A stretch of 21,901 nucleotides of DNA from a virus. The notes beneath the pieces are model-generated. The model was not told the DNA's origin. It saw only the letters and a list, made by a program, of their open reading frames with translations, and searched no databases. Positions 1,134-21,882 of the stretch are shown in pieces. How positions within the stretch are numbered: position 1 is the first letter of the stretch; each line of letters starts with the position of its first letter. The stretch spans positions 1 through 21,901 of the IMG/VR virus record IMGVR_UViG_3300035698_005532; one strand, 5' to 3'. The translations under genes were made by a program, and so were the position numbers.

Positions 1134-1226
1134 ATGAACAATTACTTTTTAATTCAGGCTTACAATTTGCCTGATTGGTCGTGGTCGGGGTCGAGGTCGG
1201 GGTCGAGGTCGTGGTCGTGGTCGTGA
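1134..1226 (+). CDS. Repeat-encoded WS/GS/RS peptide, 30 aa
   Basis: ATG 1134 follows a GAAAGGA site with a 5-base spacer, and TGA is at 1224-1226. The first 14 residues (MNNYFLIQAYNLPD) are ordinary. The last 16 are WSWSGSRSGSRSWSWS, encoded by eight hexamers of the form NGGTCG. Each hexamer keeps TCG (Ser) and varies only at base 1 (T, G or A), giving Trp, Gly or Arg. Translation is supported by the ribosome site and by the repeat staying in frame to the stop. No function is known; possibilities are a small secreted or membrane-active peptide, or a hypervariable surface peptide. Confidence 0.5.
   Translation: MNNYFLIQAYNLPDWSWSGSRSGSRSWSWS
1176..1223 (+). repeat. Eight tandem hexamers NGGTCG
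   Basis: Eight consecutive hexamers are present with first bases T,T,G,A,G,A,T,T followed by an invariant GGTCG. All variation sits at the one codon position that changes Trp, Gly and Arg. The period of 6 keeps the reading frame whatever the copy number. The block lies inside the 30-aa ORF. Confidence 0.9.
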
Positions 1227-2564: not shown

Positions 2565-2738
2565 ATGAAAAAAGAACTAGAAGCAATTAAGGAATTATCT
2601 AAAACTGTAGAAAAACTACACGAGTTAGTCACTTCACAGGGAGAGTTAATTACGTTGATGCAGGAGAGAATGGATTGTGCAGAAGATTCAAAACACTATC
2701 CATCAAAGTCAGTAGCTTATCTATTAAGAAATTCGTAA
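2565..2738 (+). CDS. Hypothetical coiled-coil protein, 57 aa, ending in RNS
   Basis: ATG 2565 lies directly behind a GAGGTAAAGG site. The sequence has heptad-like spacing of Leu/Ile (LEAIKELSKTVEKLHELV, residues 5-22), suggesting a short coiled coil. Its last codons AGA AAT TCG TAA lie in the inverted repeat GAAATTC-GTAA-GAATTTC, so the stop codon sits in the loop of a hairpin. The gene at 2963 ends in the same way with the same three residues. The function is unknown. Confidence 0.55.
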   Translation: MKKELEAIKELSKTVEKLHELVTSQGELITLMQERMDCAEDSKHYPSKSVAYLLRNS

Positions 2739-2745
2739 GAATTTC
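2728..2745 (+). repeat. Inverted repeat GAAATTC-GTAA-GAATTTC, copy 1
   Basis: A perfect 7-bp stem with a GTAA (GNRA-type) loop. The stop codon TAA of the 57-aa gene is in the loop. A 20-base core AGAAATTCGTAAGAATTTCC is identical in copy 2 (3053-3072), and the 16 inner bases recur at 21863-21878. Confidence 0.85.
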
Positions 2746-2752
2746 CCCAAGA

Positions 2753-2829
2753 TTACATCTTAGCTAGATAGAAAATGGCCGCAGGTTTCGCCCTGCCACT
2801 TGGCGGTTTTCTATCTAAGTGAGATGTAA
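2753..2829 (+). ncRNA. Conserved stem-loop element, copy 1
   Basis: TTACATCT (2753-2760) pairs perfectly with AGATGTAA (2822-2829). After a 4x4 internal loop (TAGC/AGTG), TAGATAGAAAA (2765-2775) pairs perfectly with TTTTCTATCTA (2807-2817). The apical part can form GCAGG/CCTGC. The internal loop and inner stem base (AGCTAGATAGA ... TCTATCTAAGTGAGAT) recur at 3083-3154 with a different apical sequence. Nineteen base pairs at this length are far beyond chance. The function is unknown: RNA processing, stability or regulation of the flanking small genes are possible. Confidence 0.65.
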
Positions 2830-2940
2830 CAAAGAAACGAGCCGAAAGCCAAGTGCTGATGGTCACGCCTTTCCGCTAATCCGAGTCGGAAGATGCGGGT
2901 ATAAGTGGGACAAAAAGCGTTAGCGTAACAAAGCCCACAT
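2830..2940 (+). other. Variable insert of RNA cassette 1 (no gene seen)
   Basis: This stretch stands where cassette 2 carries its tRNA. It holds several potential hairpins: CCGC/GCGG around TCC/GGA near 2874-2900, and GTGGG/CCCAC near 2906-2938. TAACAAAG occurs at its beginning and again near its end. I could not fold it into a tRNA and found no ORF of useful length. Confidence 0.3.
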
Positions 2941-2959
2941 ACTTAATTAACTTGGAGAC
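2941..2959 (+). promoter_or_regulatory. Shared leader with ribosome-binding site, copy 1
   Basis: ACTTAATTAACTTGGAGAC is identical at 3244-3262. It contains TTGGAGA as Shine-Dalgarno site, 6 bases before ATG 2963. The same 19 bases precede the small ORF at 3266, so this is the 3' end of a duplicated cassette. Confidence 0.7.
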
Positions 2960-2962
2960 AAT

Positions 2963-3064
2963 ATGAAAGAAGAAACTGTGGAAACAGACGAAGATGGTAA
3001 TATTGCAACGACAACAGAAGAACCGTTTGTTGTAGATGCAGATAATACTAATAGAAATTCGTAA
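2963..3064 (+). CDS. Hypothetical acidic peptide, 33 aa, ending in RNS
   Basis: ATG 2963 follows the TTGGAGA site of the shared leader; TAA 3062-3064 is in the loop of the second inverted repeat. The product is very acidic (MKEETVETDEDGNIATTTEE then PFVVDADNTNRNS) and probably unstructured. Both ends are fixed by elements shared with the neighbouring cassette: the leader at the 5' end and the stop-codon hairpin at the 3' end. This supports translation. The function is unknown. Confidence 0.5.
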   Translation: MKEETVETDEDGNIATTTEEPFVVDADNTNRNS

Positions 3065-3071
3065 GAATTTC
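3054..3071 (+). repeat. Inverted repeat GAAATTC-GTAA-GAATTTC, copy 2
   Basis: The same 7-bp stem and GTAA loop as at 2728-2745, again with the stop codon of the preceding gene (RNS-stop) in the loop. It starts the second RNA cassette, upstream of the stem-loop and tRNA-Ala. Confidence 0.85.
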
Positions 3072-3081
3072 CATAATTAAG

Positions 3082-3154
3082 GAGCTAGATAGAGGCAACC
3101 AAAACAACCACCCGAAAGGGTTACCTATGGAGTCAGCCTCTATCTAAGTGAGAT
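3082..3154 (+). ncRNA. Conserved stem-loop element, copy 2
   Basis: TAGATAGAGGC (3086-3096) pairs perfectly over 11 bp with GCCTCTATCTA (3136-3146). The apical part has ACCC-GAAA-GGGT, a GNRA hairpin. The flanks AGC on the 5' side and AGTGAGAT on the 3' side match copy 1 even though the outer 8-bp stem of copy 1 is not kept. Conserved loop bases with changed, compensating stem bases (AAAA/TTTT versus GGC/GCC) are the signature of a selected RNA. The tRNA begins about 10 bases downstream. Confidence 0.65.
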
Positions 3155-3160
3155 TTATTC

Positions 3161-3235
3161 GGGCGGATGGTGATAATGGTAACACACCTGTTTTGCATAC
3201 AGGAAACTAGGGTTCGATTCCCTATCTGTCCACCA
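3161..3235 (+). tRNA. tRNA-Ala (anticodon UGC), CCA encoded
   Basis: The cloverleaf is complete. The acceptor stem GGGCGGA/TCTGTCC includes a G3:U70 wobble, the classic identity element of alanyl-tRNA. The D-stem is GTG/CAC with loop ATAATGGTAA. The anticodon stem CCTGT/ACAGG encloses loop TTTGCAT with anticodon TGC at 3194-3196. The T-arm is TAGGG-TTCGATT-CCCTA, the discriminator is A and CCA is encoded (3233-3235). It is the only tRNA I find in the window and lies inside the second copy of the repeated RNA cassette. Confidence 0.93.
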
Positions 3236-3243
3236 AGCTGGAC

Positions 3244-3262
3244 ACTTAATTAACTTGGAGAC
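3244..3262 (+). promoter_or_regulatory. Shared leader with ribosome-binding site, copy 2
   Basis: Identical 19 bases to 2941-2959. TTGGAGA is placed a few bases before ATG 3266. It closes the second cassette directly after the tRNA. Confidence 0.7.
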
Positions 3263-3265
3263 CAA

Positions 3266-3379
3266 ATGATTACACACTTGTCTAAATTATTAGCAAGGAT
3301 GTATGAAACAAATCAATGTAATATTTTTAATCGTTGTAATACTAAACTGTTACAACATAAGAGCAGAGGAGAAACATAA
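3266..3379 (+). CDS. Possible small ORF, 37 aa, overlapping the lysis gene
   Basis: ATG 3266 follows the duplicated TTGGAGA leader, and TAA is at 3377-3379, within the AAGGAGG site of the nested membrane gene. The product (MITHLSKLLARMYETNQCNI and 17 more residues) shows no known motif. It overlaps the signal-peptide part of the CHAP gene (ATG 3303) in another frame. The conserved leader argues for translation, perhaps as a short ORF that feeds ribosomes into the two lysis frames. Evidence for the protein itself is weak. Confidence 0.35.
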   Translation: MITHLSKLLARMYETNQCNIFNRCNTKLLQHKSRGET

Positions 3380-4872: not shown

Positions 4873-5247
4873 ATGGCAAACCCAAATCCAACATACAAGT
4901 TTCCAAAGAATAATAATGCTAATCCCAACGGAGCACCCAAGAAAGAACTGGCGATGACTGGAGCTCTTAGAGAGATTTTGTTAGAGAAGAATCCTGATAC
5001 AAAAATAGAGAGGTACAAGGAGCTTTTACGAAAGGCTTTATCAATGGCTATGAGAGGTGATGGCGATATGCTTAAATACCTTATTAACAGAATAGAGGGT
5101 ATGCCAAAAGGTTCAGAGAAAGAAACAAATATAAATATATTAAATGTTATCCCAGTAAAGGATAGAATATACGGAGGTGAAAGTGTTTCAGGGATTTTAC
5201 GACACGACAGCGACCAAGAGGATATTCAACCTAAAGAAGAGAATTAG
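4873..5247 (+). CDS. Terminase small subunit (DNA-recognition)
   Basis: A 124-residue protein directly upstream of, and overlapping, the large terminase gene. Its N-terminus NPNGAPKKELAMTGALREIL (residues 18-37) resembles the 'NPnGRPkg' start of small terminase-like proteins. KALSMAMRGDGDMLKYLINR then IEGMPKGS (residues 54-81) matches the 'A-x-x-GD-x-x-A-x-K-x-x-x-D-R-x-x-GKP' helix-turn typical of these proteins. Small terminase binds the packaging site and hands DNA to the large subunit. Identification rests on motif plus position. Confidence 0.65.
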   Translation: MANPNPTYKFPKNNNANPNGAPKKELAMTGALREILLEKNPDTKIERYKELLRKALSMAMRGDGDMLKYLINRIEGMPKGSEKETNINILNVIPVKDRIYGGESVSGILRHDSDQEDIQPKEEN

Positions 5248-6361
5248 AGCCGTAGCAGGTGGCACAGCAGCTTCTAAGACAATATCTATACTTGTTTGGT
5301 TGATAGACTATGCTCAATCAGTTCAAAACGAAATAGTGACTGTTGTTTCAGAGTCGTTTCCCCATTTATCAGGTGGTGCGATAAGAGACTTTGAAAACAT
5401 AATGAAAGCTCAAGGATGTTGGGAAGACAAGAGATGGATTAAAAGCCCAAACAGCATATACACGTTTGAAACTGGGACAAAGATAGAGTTTATATCAGTA
5501 GATACTTATGGAAAGGCACACGGTCCCCGGCGAGATGTGCTCTTTTTGAATGAGTGTAACAACTTATCGTACACAATAGCTGACCAGCTTATTACTCGTA
5601 CTCGTAAGATAGTTTGGATGGACTGGAACCCTAGTGCAGAGTTTTGGTTCTATACTGAAATGAAAGACAAACGAGATGACATAAACTTCATTACTTTAAC
5701 TTATAAAGACAATGAAGCGTTAGACGAGTCAACAATCCGAGAGATAGAATCCCACAGGGACAACAAGAACTGGTGGTTGGTCTATGGGTTGGGACAATTA
5801 GGAGAGCTAGAGGGAAAGATATACAAAGATTGGAACATAATAGACAAGATACCACACGAGGCACGTTTAGAGAGGTACGGATTAGACTTTGGGTATAGTA
5901 ACGACCCTGCTTCAATCATATCTATCTACTACTACAACGGAGGGTATATCTTAAATGAGGAGTTGTATCAACGGGGTATGACCAACAACCAACTAGCTGA
6001 CTTCTTAAAGAATAGACCTCAAGCTTTAGTGATGGCTGACTCGGCAGAGCCTAAGTCTATAGATGAGATGAAAGAATATGGACTTAACGTTCTACCTTGT
6101 ACTAAAGGAGCTGACTCTGTAACTCAAGGAATAAACTATGTTCAACAACAACGTATCTCAATGACTAAGCGTAGCTTAAACCTTATAAGAGAGTACCGTA
6201 ATTATATGTGGATGACAGATAAGGATGGGAATATACTAACAAAACCCGACAAAGCCTTCGATCATACTATGGATGCTACACGATATGGCTTTGAGGCATT
6301 GAAGGGAGGACAAGAGAAGAAGAAAGTATCTCACTACAGGAGGGACTATGCTGTCCGCTAG
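5183..6361 (+). CDS. terL: Terminase large subunit (packaging ATPase/nuclease)
   Basis: An about 392-residue protein with both terminase domains. Counting from GTG 5177, Walker A is GGTAASKT (residues 28-35), and Walker B with its catalytic Glu is VLFLNE (121-126). The C-terminal nuclease has LDFGYSNDP (about 235-243), MADSAEPKSIDEM (about 286-298) and FDHTMDATRYGFEAL (about 360-374), supplying the acidic metal ligands. It cuts concatemeric DNA and pumps it into the prohead through the portal. I prefer GTG 5183 because the GGAGG site (5173-5177) touches GTG 5177 and leaves a usable spacer only for 5183. It overlaps the small terminase gene upstream and the next gene (6348) downstream. Confidence 0.9.
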   Translation: MFQGFYDTTATKRIFNLKKRIRAVAGGTAASKTISILVWLIDYAQSVQNEIVTVVSESFPHLSGGAIRDFENIMKAQGCWEDKRWIKSPNSIYTFETGTKIEFISVDTYGKAHGPRRDVLFLNECNNLSYTIADQLITRTRKIVWMDWNPSAEFWFYTEMKDKRDDINFITLTYKDNEALDESTIREIESHRDNKNWWLVYGLGQLGELEGKIYKDWNIIDKIPHEARLERYGLDFGYSNDPASIISIYYYNGGYILNEELYQRGMTNNQLADFLKNRPQALVMADSAEPKSIDEMKEYGLNVLPCTKGADSVTQGINYVQQQRISMTKRSLNLIREYRNYMWMTDKDGNILTKPDKAFDHTMDATRYGFEALKGGQEKKKVSHYRRDYAVR

Positions 6362-6740
6362 GGACTATGTAGAGATAATGACTTGTAAGAGGCTAAATAG
6401 ATGCCTACCAACAGACAGAGAAGTTTTTGACCAAGAGTTTAATGAGGTATGGAACAAACTAGACAAGCTAACAAACTCACTAGCACACAACAATAAGATA
6501 GATGGCTTCGGTGAAGATGACTTAAAAGGTTTCTTTGCTATGAACGTACATCAATCACTCAGAAGAGGCAAATATGACAAGAATAGACCACCTTATGGGT
6601 TTTTTAAGACAAACTTTGACAATTTACTACGTAATTTGGTCAGAGAAATAGAAAACACAGAGAAAAAACTCTCTCCACGTGAAGATTTGTATGATTTTAT
6701 AACAGATTCTGACCTTTTTGACGGTTTTCACTCACTATGA
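6348..6740 (+). CDS. Small protein with sigma-factor region 2-like pattern, 130 aa
   Basis: ATG 6348 follows AGGAGGG and overlaps the end of the terminase gene. The central part FGEDDLKGFFAMNVHQSL then KYDKNRPPYGFFKTNFDN and LLRNLVREIEN (about residues 54-105) resembles region 2 of sigma-70 family proteins, which reads 'DL-x-Q-E... l... kyD...R-f-x-t-y...I-x-N-x-l-x-d-x-x-R'. Region 4 is missing at 130 residues. It could be a phage late-transcription factor that recognises the repeated 17-base motif starting on its own stop codon (6740). That link is inference. Otherwise it is a hypothetical protein. Confidence 0.45.
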   Translation: MLSARDYVEIMTCKRLNRCLPTDREVFDQEFNEVWNKLDKLTNSLAHNNKIDGFGEDDLKGFFAMNVHQSLRRGKYDKNRPPYGFFKTNFDNLLRNLVREIENTEKKLSPREDLYDFITDSDLFDGFHSL

Positions 6741-6756
6741 ATTGTATTATAAGGTG
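6740..6756 (+). promoter_or_regulatory. 17-base repeated motif before portal (probable late promoter), copy 1
   Basis: AATTGTATTATAAGGTG is identical at 18651-18667. It starts on the last base of the upstream stop codon and ends directly before portal ATG 6757. TATTAT (6745-6750) is one base from the -10 consensus. TTGACG lies at 6718-6723 but with a 21-base spacer, and copy 2 has no good -35, so a phage-specific or extended -10 promoter is likelier. Confidence 0.55.
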
Positions 6757-8673
6757 ATGAGTAAAGAAACTGATACAATTCAAGACTACGTAGGAGAGTT
6801 TACATCTTGGAAATATGAGCTAAAGAAGTATTGGACGACCATAGATAAGAACCAAGAGATGTACGAGTTCTACAAAAGCGAAGACTCTGAGACACAGAGC
6901 CAAGTTTCGTTGAACACTCCTTTTGCCATAGTTGAGAGTATGGTGTCTAAAGCTAACGACTCCAACATAAACATAACTGTCAACGCTACCGGAGAGAAGG
7001 GCTTACAAGAGATAGAGAAGTGGATAGCCTCTATATTAGAAGACGCACTAGAAGACCCAGATGTTGCTATGTTCGAGGGTACGTTCAGAAAGAAACGTGA
7101 GCAGTTCTTCAGAGACTTCCTTACTAAAGGTAATGCAGTAGCTTCAGTAGAGTGGATAAAGAAAAGAGACACCAAAGGCAAAGTTATAGCTAACAACCCT
7201 TTTGTTAAGATAAGAAACCTAAAGAGTGTTATCTTCAACCCAACTAAAACACTATCTAACTCAGATGTTTACTACATAGAGTCTCACGTTAAATACTCCG
7301 ACCTTAAAAAGAACAAATACAGCACTAAAGATGACACGGGCTTATACAAGAACCTATCAAAGATAAAAGACCTAGCAAATAAGAAAGATGTTGATATAGA
7401 AGATGAATACTACTACGCAGGTAAAGAGAAGATTACTAAGAGGGGTGCTCCTATACGGATAATCGAGAGGTGGGAAGGCTCAAAGTATCTTGTTATAGCT
7501 GATGACTCAGTGATTATAAGAGAAGAAGACGATCCGTTTGAAATAGGTGGACACAACCTAGTTACCGCTATGAATTACGTTGTAGGTGAGAGACCATATG
7601 CTTATGGAGAGATAGACGCTATCTATACAACGGTGAGAGCACAAGACACTATAATCAACCAGTCAATAGACATTATAAATCGTTATTTAAGACCTTCAAT
7701 AGTAGTTGATGCAATAGCCGATATGGATTTAGACCAACTCCAAGACTTGATTGAGAATGGTGGAGTTATGGAGGGCAAACCTGAGATGATAGGCACAGTA
7801 CCAACTAACGTACCACCAGCACAAGCCTTCCAAACAGTTGATACCCTACAACAAGCTATAGAACGCACAGAGAGGTTTTCTCCATATTCTACAGGTGTTC
7901 CTAACAGTGCAGTAGATAAGACCGGAGGCACAGCTACAGGCATAGTTAAGATGCAACAGGCTTCAGAGCCTAACTTCCAAATCAAGCTAGATGCCCTTGA
8001 AGAGTCATTTATGCGACCAGTAGCTAGAATAGAGTTGAAGATGATAGCTAACCTTATGTCCCCAACAGACTTCAGATATGGAATGCTACAAGGTAAGACT
8101 TCCGAATGGGTTAAGGCAGGACGGAATCTACTTAAAGGAAAGCCAAAGATAAAAGACTTACTAGACATAGGCTACACCACCGAAGAGGGAGCATTGGAAT
8201 ACACACACACAGTTGACCCTTACACAATGGATATTATACCTATCCCTGGTGCAGATAAAGCACCGGTGTTTGATATAGATTGGTTAATAGATGTAAGACT
8301 AGACGACCAGAGTGCTGCTGACAAAGAAGAGGAAACCAACAAGTTAATGGCTTGGGTACAGTTTGCAGAACAGATTGGTAATAGATTCCACCCTGAAAGA
8401 ACTGCTGTATATGTAGCTGAGAAGCAAGGTATAGAAGACCCTGAGAACTTAATGCTGACCGAAGAAGAGACAGCCGAGGAAGAACAACAGATGATGCAAC
8501 AACAGCAACAGGAGCAACAGCAGGTTCAAGAACAACAACAACAACAGGTACAGCAACAACAACAAGATACGCAAGTTGAACAACAACAACAAGCTCAACA
8601 AGAGCAACAGCGACAACAGTTTGAGTTACAAAAAGAACAAGTAAAACAAAGAGGACAGTATGTTATCGGATAA
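6757..8673 (+). CDS. Portal protein
   Basis: A 638-residue protein between the large terminase and the scaffold/capsid genes. It has the length and texture of podovirus portal proteins: N-terminal SWKYELKKYWTTIDKNQEMY, a long alpha/beta body, PYAYGEIDAIYTTVRAQDTI followed by NQSIDIINRYLRPS (the usual portal long-helix region), and FSPYSTGVPNSAVDKTGGTA then TGIVKMQQAS (the conserved 'G-x-x-T-A-t-g' segment). The C-terminal 60 residues are glutamine-rich. The portal is the ring at one vertex through which DNA enters and leaves. ATG 6757 is chosen; the frame is open upstream to TTG 6718, but that part overlaps the previous gene and the repeated promoter-like motif. No properly spaced Shine-Dalgarno site precedes 6757. 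Confidence 0.85.
   Translation: MSKETDTIQDYVGEFTSWKYELKKYWTTIDKNQEMYEFYKSEDSETQSQVSLNTPFAIVESMVSKANDSNINITVNATGEKGLQEIEKWIASILEDALEDPDVAMFEGTFRKKREQFFRDFLTKGNAVASVEWIKKRDTKGKVIANNPFVKIRNLKSVIFNPTKTLSNSDVYYIESHVKYSDLKKNKYSTKDDTGLYKNLSKIKDLANKKDVDIEDEYYYAGKEKITKRGAPIRIIERWEGSKYLVIADDSVIIREEDDPFEIGGHNLVTAMNYVVGERPYAYGEIDAIYTTVRAQDTIINQSIDIINRYLRPSIVVDAIADMDLDQLQDLIENGGVMEGKPEMIGTVPTNVPPAQAFQTVDTLQQAIERTERFSPYSTGVPNSAVDKTGGTATGIVKMQQASEPNFQIKLDALEESFMRPVARIELKMIANLMSPTDFRYGMLQGKTSEWVKAGRNLLKGKPKIKDLLDIGYTTEEGALEYTHTVDPYTMDIIPIPGADKAPVFDIDWLIDVRLDDQSAADKEEETNKLMAWVQFAEQIGNRFHPERTAVYVAEKQGIEDPENLMLTEEETAEEEQQMMQQQQQEQQQVQEQQQQQVQQQQQDTQVEQQQQAQQEQQRQQFELQKEQVKQRGQYVIG
8485..8619 (+). repeat. Glutamine-rich CAA/CAG tract in the portal gene
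   Basis: Most codons here are CAA or CAG, interrupted by Glu, Met, Val, Thr, Asp and Ala, giving tracts of up to five Gln. CAA and CAG are mixed, so this is not a pure microsatellite and the protein composition itself seems selected. Confidence 0.8.
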
Positions 8674-9713: not shown

Positions 9714-10607
9714 ATGGCAGCAGAATCAGGAGCGTTTTCCTATAATGACGGTTCAAACAGAGAAAGTTTGTCCGCTCAAATTAAGGATATAGACGTATTA
9801 GAAACTCACGTGTCATCTACCTCTGCATCAGTACCAGTAACCAACAAAGTTCACTCTTGGGTGATTGACCCAGTTACGGCTCAATCTGCACAGGCAGGAA
9901 CTGTTGAGTTATCCGATACTACGTATGCCGCTACAGACCCAACACTTTTATTGAATACCACTCAGGTTATCGAAAAAGGTGTTGCGGTAGCAGCTACAAA
10001 CCAGAATACAGACCATGCAGGGTTTAAAGACAAGTGGGCGAGAGAGAAGACAAAGAAGATGAAAGAGTGGAAGAATCAGCTAGAGCTTTCAGCCGTATCT
10101 GGCACGTTGGTTTCAGGAACTGGAACAGCAGCTAGAAGTATGGACGGGCTTAGAACATTCGCTTCTACATTAGTAAGTGTTCATGGATCAGGTGTCTCAT
10201 TGACATCAGCGATGTTGAATACTATGCTAAAAGAGGCTTGGACAGCAGGTTCAGACCATGACACTATCTTAGTCGGTGCAGGACTTAAACAGAGAATATC
10301 AATGTTCACTCAGAACACTACACAAAACATTGATGCTGACGAGTTCAAGTCCGTTGGTAGAATAGACGTCTATCAGTCAGACTTTGGCACACAGGAAGTG
10401 GTAAAACACCGATACGTTGAATTGGATGCAGTTACAGCTAACCTTGTAACTTACATCAAAGACTTCGTTTATATGGGTGTGATGGATGAGGTTCACTACG
10501 AAGACAGAGCAAAGACAGGTTACTACAGAAAAGGTGCTATCGTTGGTGAATACACTGTAGAAGTTAAGAATGAAAAGGCAGTTGGTTACTATACACTGTT
10601 GAAATAG
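9714..10607 (+). CDS. Major capsid protein (SU10-like, HK97 fold)
   Basis: A 297-residue protein after the scaffold. The order of segments matches the SU10-type major capsid family (DUF5309) as I know it: HSWVIDP early, an NTTQVIEKGVAVAATNQNTD strand-turn, KWAREKTKKMKEWKNQLELS (the family's 'K...E-L-K-x-x-x-E' helix), GTLVSGTGTAARSMDGLRTF, a TMLKEAWTAGSDHDTILVGA helix-strand, then KSVGRIDVYQSDFGTQEVVK, followed by the C-terminal 'K-T-G...YYRKGAIVGEYTVEVKNE' strands. It builds the icosahedral shell. High expression is expected, yet only a weak AGAGAA site precedes ATG 9714. Confidence 0.85.
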   Translation: MAAESGAFSYNDGSNRESLSAQIKDIDVLETHVSSTSASVPVTNKVHSWVIDPVTAQSAQAGTVELSDTTYAATDPTLLLNTTQVIEKGVAVAATNQNTDHAGFKDKWAREKTKKMKEWKNQLELSAVSGTLVSGTGTAARSMDGLRTFASTLVSVHGSGVSLTSAMLNTMLKEAWTAGSDHDTILVGAGLKQRISMFTQNTTQNIDADEFKSVGRIDVYQSDFGTQEVVKHRYVELDAVTANLVTYIKDFVYMGVMDEVHYEDRAKTGYYRKGAIVGEYTVEVKNEKAVGYYTLLK

Positions 10608-18062: not shown

Positions 18063-18651
18063 TAAAACTAACAGGAAGAAAGTCCAAGCTGTTGTGCCTT
18101 TGTACATCAACTCTCCGTCATTGTTTCCAATAGTGACTGACTTCTTTGAGTCGATGGAAGAACACTACCCCGATATTGAGTTGATAGTGATTGATGATTG
18201 CTCGCCAATGAAGCATAGCTTCCCTATAACCCATCAGAACAAAAAGAACATGGGATTTACCAAGACTGTAAATAAGGGATTAAAGCTCTCTAAAGCTGAT
18301 GTGATACTTGTCCTCAATGATGACTTAAAAATCGCTAAAGGGGACTTAGACCGATACTACTTAATTAGTGGACTAGGTATATGGAGCCCTAGGGATACCG
18401 CCTCTGATGATTCTGATAGATTCGGTGCTATTTGGGGATTGACCCGTCAGACGTTAAATAGGTTGGGGTTTATGAATGATAAATTCAAAAACTACTTCTC
18501 TGACAACGATTACTACCAACGAGCCAAGAAGCTCGACATTCAAATAGTAAAGTGGCACGACATCTGTGTTGAACATAGAGAAAACGCCACCTTTAAGAAC
18601 GAAGACAAGGAAAAACTTTTCAACGAGGACAAAGACGCATTTTTCTCCTAA
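18043..18651 (+). CDS. Glycosyltransferase family 2, last gene of the cassette
   Basis: ATG 18043 follows AGGAGG with a 6-base spacer; the frame is open to TTG 18028. The 202-residue product is a short GT2: VQAVVPLYINSPSLFPIVTD, ELIVIDDCSP (residues 46-55), NMGFTKTVNKGL (69-80, the 'N-x-G-f-x-x-x-x-N-x-G' helix) and VILVLNDDLKI (87-97, metal site). FGAIWGLTRQTLNRLGFMND then YFSDNDYYQRAKKL is the acceptor-side region. It adds a sugar from a nucleotide donor. Its TAA (18649-18651) ends on the first base of the second 17-base promoter-like motif. Confidence 0.82.
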   Translation: MNMKSIDKTNRKKVQAVVPLYINSPSLFPIVTDFFESMEEHYPDIELIVIDDCSPMKHSFPITHQNKKNMGFTKTVNKGLKLSKADVILVLNDDLKIAKGDLDRYYLISGLGIWSPRDTASDDSDRFGAIWGLTRQTLNRLGFMNDKFKNYFSDNDYYQRAKKLDIQIVKWHDICVEHRENATFKNEDKEKLFNEDKDAFFS

Positions 18652-18667
18652 ATTGTATTATAAGGTG
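18651..18667 (+). promoter_or_regulatory. 17-base repeated motif before the tail genes (probable late promoter), copy 2
   Basis: AATTGTATTATAAGGTG, identical to 6740-6756, again begins on the last base of a stop codon. Transcription from a TATTAT -10 at 18656-18661 would start near 18668 and give a leader of about 29 bases with an AGAGGA ribosome site (18677-18682) before ATG 18697. Confidence 0.55.
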
Positions 18668-20959: not shown

Positions 20960-21862
20960 ATGGCTAAATACACTTTACAAACAAGAACAACTGACACTTT
21001 GAACGGAACAATGGCGGCTTCGGCTGTCTCTTGTACACTTTTAAGTGGTAACTTCGGTTCACCAACAGGAAAGCAGATAATAACTATAGATTACGATGTC
21101 TCCGCTAAGGCTGCTGATTTTCTATGTACTATCGCAGATACAGCAGTGACCTCGATGACTCTATTAAATGGTTCAGATGTAGAACACACCACAGGAGCTA
21201 ATGTGGCTATGACTTTCGTAGATGAACATTATTCTTTACTAATGAATACTCAAAATGATGGTTGGCTAGACCCTGTTGAAACTTGGGCTTATGCCTCGGC
21301 TTCTACAATCACAGTTCCATCGGGGGCTGCTGCTAGGTATGCAGTAGGAGATAAGATTAAATGGACACAGACTACAGTAAAATATGGAGTAATAACTGGA
21401 ATAGCAGATACTGTACTTACAATAGCTGTAAATACTGATTATGTAGTAACAGACGCTACAATCTCTGCTAATTACTATTCAAAGCAGGCTTCACCAGTAG
21501 GATTTCCAGTATGGTTCGCTTGGACACCAACTTGGACAGGTTCAGGCACACTGACATATGCTTCAGTAACCTATAATAGACAACACTTTGCCATTATCGG
21601 TGGAGTCTGCTTGATAAACCTAAACATAGCAGGTGGAACAGTAGCTAATTCAGATACAAATATAGGAATGACACTACCAGTTGATTGTATAGATGGAAAT
21701 AGTATTGGCGGTATGACACAAGGAACAGACGATGGGTCGGTAAAGAATGTTGCCATAAAAGACGATGGAACAACTAATAGTTGTGACTTTGCCCTAGTGT
21801 CAGGAAACTGGACAAACGGAACAGTCACATTTATAGCAAACTTCGCTTATCCGATAGTGTAA
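20960..21862 (+). CDS. Tail fibre-like / receptor-binding structural protein, 300 aa
   Basis: ATG 20960 follows AAGGAGC. The 300-residue product is Thr, Ser, Gly and Ala-rich and beta-stranded. Residues 1-110 have repeated 'GTMAASAVSCTLLSGNFGSP' and 'TAVTSMTLLNGSDVEHTTGA' modules. WAYASASTITVPSGAAARYA then VGDKIKWTQTTVKYGVI resembles a known phage tail module ('w-x-y-x-s-a-t-t-i-x-V-p-x-G...y-x-v-G-D-k-i'). WTPTWTGSGTLTYASVTYNR is a typical tail-fibre C-terminal entry ('W-x-P-T...t-y...Y...G'), followed by VCLINLNIAGGTV. It probably contacts the host surface or joins fibres to the tail. Confidence 0.62.
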   Translation: MAKYTLQTRTTDTLNGTMAASAVSCTLLSGNFGSPTGKQIITIDYDVSAKAADFLCTIADTAVTSMTLLNGSDVEHTTGANVAMTFVDEHYSLLMNTQNDGWLDPVETWAYASASTITVPSGAAARYAVGDKIKWTQTTVKYGVITGIADTVLTIAVNTDYVVTDATISANYYSKQASPVGFPVWFAWTPTWTGSGTLTYASVTYNRQHFAIIGGVCLINLNIAGGTVANSDTNIGMTLPVDCIDGNSIGGMTQGTDDGSVKNVAIKDDGTTNSCDFALVSGNWTNGTVTFIANFAYPIV

Positions 21863-21882
21863 AAATTCGTAAGAATTTTACA
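21860..21882 (+). repeat. Inverted repeat AAATTC-GTAA-GAATTT, copy 3
   Basis: Bases 21863-21878 are identical to the core of the copies at 2729 and 3055. Here the stem extends to GTAAAAATTC/GAATTTTAC with one bulge. It starts at the stop codon of the tail-fibre-like gene and precedes an AAGAAAGGA site at the window's end. In this copy the stop codon is in the 5' arm rather than in the loop. Confidence 0.8.

Follow-up and report, generated by a model that had tools for sequence, protein, structure and literature searches.

We find that a phage genome carries twin units in which the same stem-loop precedes two different RNAs: in the first, a structured RNA conserved with covariation in a second phage lineage, and in the second, a tRNA-Ala, next to the start of a putative lysis region. 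The explanation we favor, at somewhat less than even confidence, is a structured phage RNA locus that was duplicated, in which the insert of one copy was swapped for a tRNA and the stem-loop serves as a processing helix. The window, meaning the whole stretch of DNA analysed, is a virus record of 21.9 kb (21,901 nucleotides) with terminase at 5177-6361, portal at 6718-8673 and major capsid at 9714-10607. The locus has the following features:

2728-2745, plus strand: GYAA-loop hairpin of unit 1, at the stop of a 57-aa ORF; a separate element abutting the unit
2753-2829, plus strand: stem-loop of unit 1, fold z -7.75, architecture kept in the related genome G004
2830-2938, plus strand: insert 1, a structured RNA with three helices, conserved in G004
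2941-2959, plus strand: 19-nt leader of unit 1 with a GGAG Shine-Dalgarno, before ATG 2963 of a 33-aa ORF
3054-3071, plus strand: GYAA-loop hairpin of unit 2, an identical second copy, at the stop of the 33-aa ORF
3086-3146, plus strand: stem-loop of unit 2, with the upper stem only (3086-3096/3136-3146), then AGTGAGAT
3161-3235, plus strand: tRNA-Ala, anticodon TGC (UGC), by the Rfam tRNA model, cloverleaf and anticodon
3244-3262, plus strand: 19-nt leader of unit 2, an identical copy, before ATG 3266

As the first-pass annotation had proposed, two units with shared blocks are present, unit 1 at 2727-2966 and unit 2 at 3053-3269. They have the hairpin, the stem-loop arms (AGCTAGATAGA and TCTATCTAAGTGAGAT) and the 19-nt leader in common; the 20-mers and leaders are identical, and the DNA between the shared blocks is unrelated. 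The perfect 20-mer (2727-2746 and 3053-3072) contains the 18-nt hairpin GAAATTC-GTAA-GAATTTC. ATG 3266 belongs to the small gene that comes first in the putative lysis region, and the start of this gene is similar in two related genomes, G001 and G004. The lysis label is tentative, being drawn from how the genes are laid out and from a transglycosylase (SLT) match in G004 that stays below threshold; Pfam scans of the nearby ORFs gave no match above cut-offs. Elsewhere in the window, an identical 17-nt sequence, AATTGTATTATAAGGTG, occurs at 6740-6756, just before the likely portal ATG at 6757, and at 18651-18667, possibly as a second repeated leader or promoter.

The GYAA-loop hairpin, used as a search probe, led to the true relatives G001 (42.1 kb, 80-nt terminal repeat) and G004 (38.6 kb, 114-nt terminal repeat), both of which look complete given the terminal repeats at their ends. 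A third record, G003, is nearly identical to G004 in this region and identical through the RNA. Recognisable proteins common to the window and G004 are few. Window 2810-2938 and G004 3111-3238 nevertheless share 81% identity over 129 nt, the best-conserved DNA common to both, and this preservation of insert 1 between phages with almost no other DNA in common argues for the favored explanation; it covers two lineages, that of the window and that of G004 and G003. Insert 1 is predicted to form helices A (CAAGU loop), B (CCGC/GCGG and UCCG/CGGA) and C (GUGGG/CCCAC). Many of the differences between the phages fall in helix A, with pairs mostly kept or compensated, so that helix A covaries, and the remaining helices are invariant except for one G-U/A-U change. 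The claim that insert 1 is folded holds on these grounds and not on those of the window sequence: alone, the window copy folds no better than shuffles to a significant degree (z -1.1), whereas that of G004 reaches z -3.0, and the structural support therefore comes from the G004 fold and conservation.

What kind of RNA is insert 1? A coding function was rejected, with stops in every plus frame in both phages. So was a degenerate tRNA: tRNA models gave no match up to E 10 and none in G004, where the D-arm-like part is not kept. Stem-loop and insert 1 match no family of Rfam 15 at gathering score in the window, G001, G004 or G003, and no phage or plasmid match was obtained. The best sub-threshold scores belong to different families (RAGATH-33, 13.7 of 120.4 bits; in G004 freshwater-2, 18.2 of 49.9 bits), and a RAGATH-33 identity was discarded, as the weak match was not reproduced in G004.

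In both phages the stem-loop immediately precedes insert 1 (z -7.75 in the window and -4.5 in G004 against shuffles; -3.6 to -4.4 for unit 2), which again argues for the favored explanation and is our reason for treating stem-loop and insert 1 as one RNA family, the architecture being the same. In unit 1 a lower stem of 10 bp (2753-2762/2820-2829) and an upper stem (2765-2776/2806-2817) enclose what the minimum free energy fold gives as a 2x2 internal loop, GC/AG, inside a wider UUAGC/AGUGA region common to G004. The unit 1 sequence reads TTACATC-TTAGC-TAGATAGAAAA...TTTTCTATCTA-AGTGA-GATGTAA, and that before insert 1 of G004, its arms aligned by hand, TTATATC-TAGT-ATGTAGAGAG...CTCTCTACAT-TAGTG-GATATAA. 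Every upper-stem pair forms in unit 1, unit 2 and G004 alike, while at 10 of 11 positions both sides have changed; in the 10-bp upper stem of G004 the bases have changed, all remain paired, and the AGUG strand of the internal loop is kept. The lower stem of unit 1 and G004 is fully paired with one compensated position, and the apical parts are wholly different (about 29, 39 and 80 nt). Between the two units, three A-T pairs of the inner stem stand against G-C, G-C and C-G, the compensatory change that the first-pass annotation had read as covariation-like, and G004 agrees. That these three stem-loops keep their upper-stem pairs despite base changes supports a selected RNA. Because any two hairpins would pair, homology of the G004 stem-loop relies on its adjacency to insert 1 and on the AGUG strand, and this dependence on position and a short internal-loop motif weakens the case for the favored explanation. 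The stem-loop described for both units is there in its upper part, but the lower 10-bp stem is confined to unit 1, unit 2 having no proper lower stem. A candidate kissing pair between CACUUGGC of the unit 1 stem-loop and GCCAAGUG of loop A in insert 1 was set aside, since it is found in the window alone.

In two relatives the stem-loop is incomplete at the corresponding site. G001 has an identical 27-nt 5' arm at the matching place, upstream of the gene corresponding to window 3266, and no 3' arm was found after it. An exact 16-mer of the 3' arm gave 10 matches in IMG/VR, mostly unrelated; one is a true relative, L001 (IMGVR_UViG_3300031227_004498), whose neighbouring genes resemble those of the window (HNH-type protein 61%, endolysin-like 49%, over the matched pieces). 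There, an intergenic 21-nt 3' arm is identical to window 3137-3157, and some 780 nt upstream of it is a sequence resembling the 5' arm. The two arms, at 519-538 and 1299-1319 of the reverse strand, lie on the same strand and cofold at -12.8 kcal/mol, against a mean of -6.4 (sd 2.1) and a best of -14.5 among 500 shuffles, moderate evidence that the split arms could still pair. On the G001 reverse strand, a second 5'-arm-like sequence, ATTACATCTTGGTTAGATAA, occurs at a gene end about 330 nt upstream of the 27-nt arm (L099 minus 2190); its reading frame differs from that of the L001 copy, which suggests a nucleotide-level motif. Stems that are not conserved in homologous phages had been named at the outset as speaking against a selected RNA, and this is in part what is seen, with the 5' arm only in G001 and the 3' arm only at the site in L001. 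Given these and the missing lower stem of unit 2, the full helix is not universal, which counts against the favored explanation.

Three other explanations were weighed. An ordinary duplication with no function beyond the tRNA would account for the lost lower stem of unit 2 and the partial versions in G001 and L001, but hardly for a non-coding stretch 81% conserved, with covariation, in a distant phage, and we consider it extremely improbable. Could the 3' arm (CTATCTAAGTGAGATTTA) instead be a phage-specific promoter that drives the RNA or gene following it? The identical 21-mer precedes the putative lysis genes of L001 without an adjacent 5' arm; against this, only two convincing copies occur in the window and none in G001, the G004 sequence has changed while pairing is kept, and a single-subunit search gave no phage RNA polymerase match, though the controls were silent as well. 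A promoter is thus very unlikely. Finally, the shared blocks may be short DNA homologies for exchange of intergenic cargo, RNA structure being secondary. Identical short blocks do flank unrelated inserts, the genomes are mosaic, and blocks of 25-27 nt that are identical in the window and G001 adjoin in one of the two but are separated by about 1 kb in the other. The arms of G004, however, differ yet pair, which use as homology would not need, and insert 1 is kept in a distant phage; we regard this recombination module as improbable.

Searches for further copies returned few. Among 68 terminase-relative loci (best-segment identity at most 70% amino acid) there was no DNA similarity to the locus and no credible match to model R1, and 77 further loci gave chance-level R1 scores only. 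The neighbouring 183-aa ORF as query found no relatives. A profile search with the neighbouring 69-aa protein and an insert-1 pattern search of IMG/VR each matched only G003 and G004. A paired-arm pattern had no match in IMG/VR; its one match in genome contigs, on a Lokiarchaeota contig that lacks phage context, was taken as chance.

The inverted repeat was initially taken as part of the cassette. It is present in both units, but also at 141-158 and 21862-21879 of the window and in the relatives: the GYAA-loop hairpin is a separate genome-wide element and not specific to the cassette. This 18-nt hairpin with a stem of 7 occurs at four places in the window (the other two being 2728-2745 and 3054-3071), in 10 copies in G001 and in 2 in G004. 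Its frequency in the window greatly exceeds chance: with up to 3 mismatches allowed, shuffles average 0.01. In a further count, sites were chosen by CGYAAG alone, and a stem was scored wherever at least 5 further pairs flanked the site. The window has 16 CGYAAG sites, 4 of them with a stem; G001 has 31, 10 with a stem, and G004 has 13, 2 with a stem. These 16 stems compare with about 0.06 expected, and four control loops together yielded 3 from a much larger number of sites. Nine stem types occur, with compensated differences. Most copies are found on the sense strand where a gene ends, immediately ahead of the next Shine-Dalgarno, and lack a T run. The relatives carry hairpins away from any stem-loop, and in G004 a gene separates hairpin and stem-loop. 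No exact or convincing copy was found in 39 terminase-relative records, and nothing pertinent in the literature on intergenic GNRA hairpins in phages. Other repeats are also seen in these genomes: GGTCGN hexamer repeats in a short ORF at window 1177-1226, of which G001 has a longer array in the corresponding position.

The insert of unit 2 is, as first annotated, a complete tRNA-Ala (3161-3235; 58.6 bits with RF00005, gathering threshold 29), and the sequence reads an encoded CCA and a G3-U70 pair. ARAGORN found no tRNA at all in G001, G003 or G004, and none of the 50 terminase relatives scanned contains a tRNA. Unit 2 appears to be a duplicate in which a tRNA has replaced the original cargo. 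The idea of a modular locus fares accordingly: copies and phages do differ in the RNA that follows the stem-loop, but since G004 has stem-loop and insert 1 joined in a single RNA, the swap is seen only once, for the tRNA of unit 2, and no other cargos were found. A functional tRNA needs excision from a longer transcript or its own promoter. A weak sigma-70-like match at 3148-3177 overlaps unit 2; the total of such matches is not above shuffles, and sigma-70 may not be the type used by the host.

In the explanation we favor, the locus would encode a structured RNA of about 185 nt (stem-loop and insert 1), placed just ahead of the putative lysis region. In the window phage the unit would have been duplicated, and a tRNA-Ala gene would have taken the place of the insert in the downstream copy, with stem-loop and leader kept as flanks in both; shared flanks around unrelated inserts, one of them a tRNA, are what this predicts. 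The locus would be co-transcribed in a polycistronic transcript, and the stem-loop, with its upper stem, AGUG internal loop and lower stem, may be a cleavage helix, probably for host RNase III. Cleavage would separate the upstream mRNA from the RNA behind, insert 1 or a pre-tRNA; the pre-tRNA would then be finished by RNase P, and insert 1 might act as a free RNA. On the other hand, the 11-bp helix of unit 2 is short for RNase III because the lower stem is missing, and RNase P could mature the tRNA without a stem-loop.

Alternatively, stem-loop and insert 1 may be a 5' UTR that controls translation or mRNA stability of the next small gene, perhaps riboswitch-like or to set the timing of the putative lysis region. 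The gene that opens this region in G004 has its start codon about 25 nt past the end of insert 1, and CAAGUG of loop A is complementary (6 bp) to codons 3-5 of that gene and of its window counterpart at 3266, a pairing that we treat as a lead and not as evidence because it was spotted after many comparisons. In the window, however, insert 1 precedes an unrelated 33-aa ORF with unit 2 intervening, conserved pairing with the Shine-Dalgarno was not found, and a tRNA in the same slot fits badly. Such a cis-regulatory leader is unlikely, if worth keeping in view. In G001, a different structured intergenic RNA (about 31111-31245; L115:11111-11245, minus strand; z -3.4), with no Rfam or phage match, lies upstream of the corresponding lysis-like region.

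For the candidate processing helix, the nearest model may be T7 R1.1, with its upper stem, internal loop and lower stem. R1.1 is a signal that RNase III cuts at a single bond (PMC4858673). It is likewise an intergenic phage stem-loop, and for unit 1 and G004 an upper helix, an internal loop and a lower helix are predicted; unlike R1.1, unit 2 has no lower stem and an RNA gene follows, and the comparison is one of layout. GOLLD and ROOL are structured phage or prophage RNAs without known function, often near tRNA genes; the GOLLD linker sometimes contains tRNAs, and many GOLLD RNAs exceed 800 nt (PMC12286853). They are the nearest known kind, as structured phage RNAs near tRNAs, but are far larger than the RNA described here of about 185 nt, where the tRNA sits in a duplicated unit, and their Rfam covariance models gave no gathering-threshold match in the window, G001, G004 or G003. 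The T4 stable RNAs C and D, small and of unknown function, lie beside the T4 tRNA cluster and are alike by description, as small phage RNAs next to tRNAs; we know of no shared stem-loop in front of each RNA in T4. The PeSL (promoter early stem-loop) elements of T4-type phages are likewise repeated intergenic stem-loops, with proposed modular shuffling, whereas the stem-loop described here goes with a single conserved RNA.

A bolder reading, rather improbable in our estimate, is a new RNA family with swappable cargo, in which a covarying release helix is coupled to a structured regulatory RNA or a tRNA; sitting at the entry to the lysis region, it might time lysis by pairing with the first gene. 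An uncatalogued conserved structured RNA joins the few phage RNAs that have been found next to tRNAs, and the hairpins at gene ends form another unexplained RNA family in these phages. Given that the same stem-loop stands before different RNAs in one genome, its role is directly testable.
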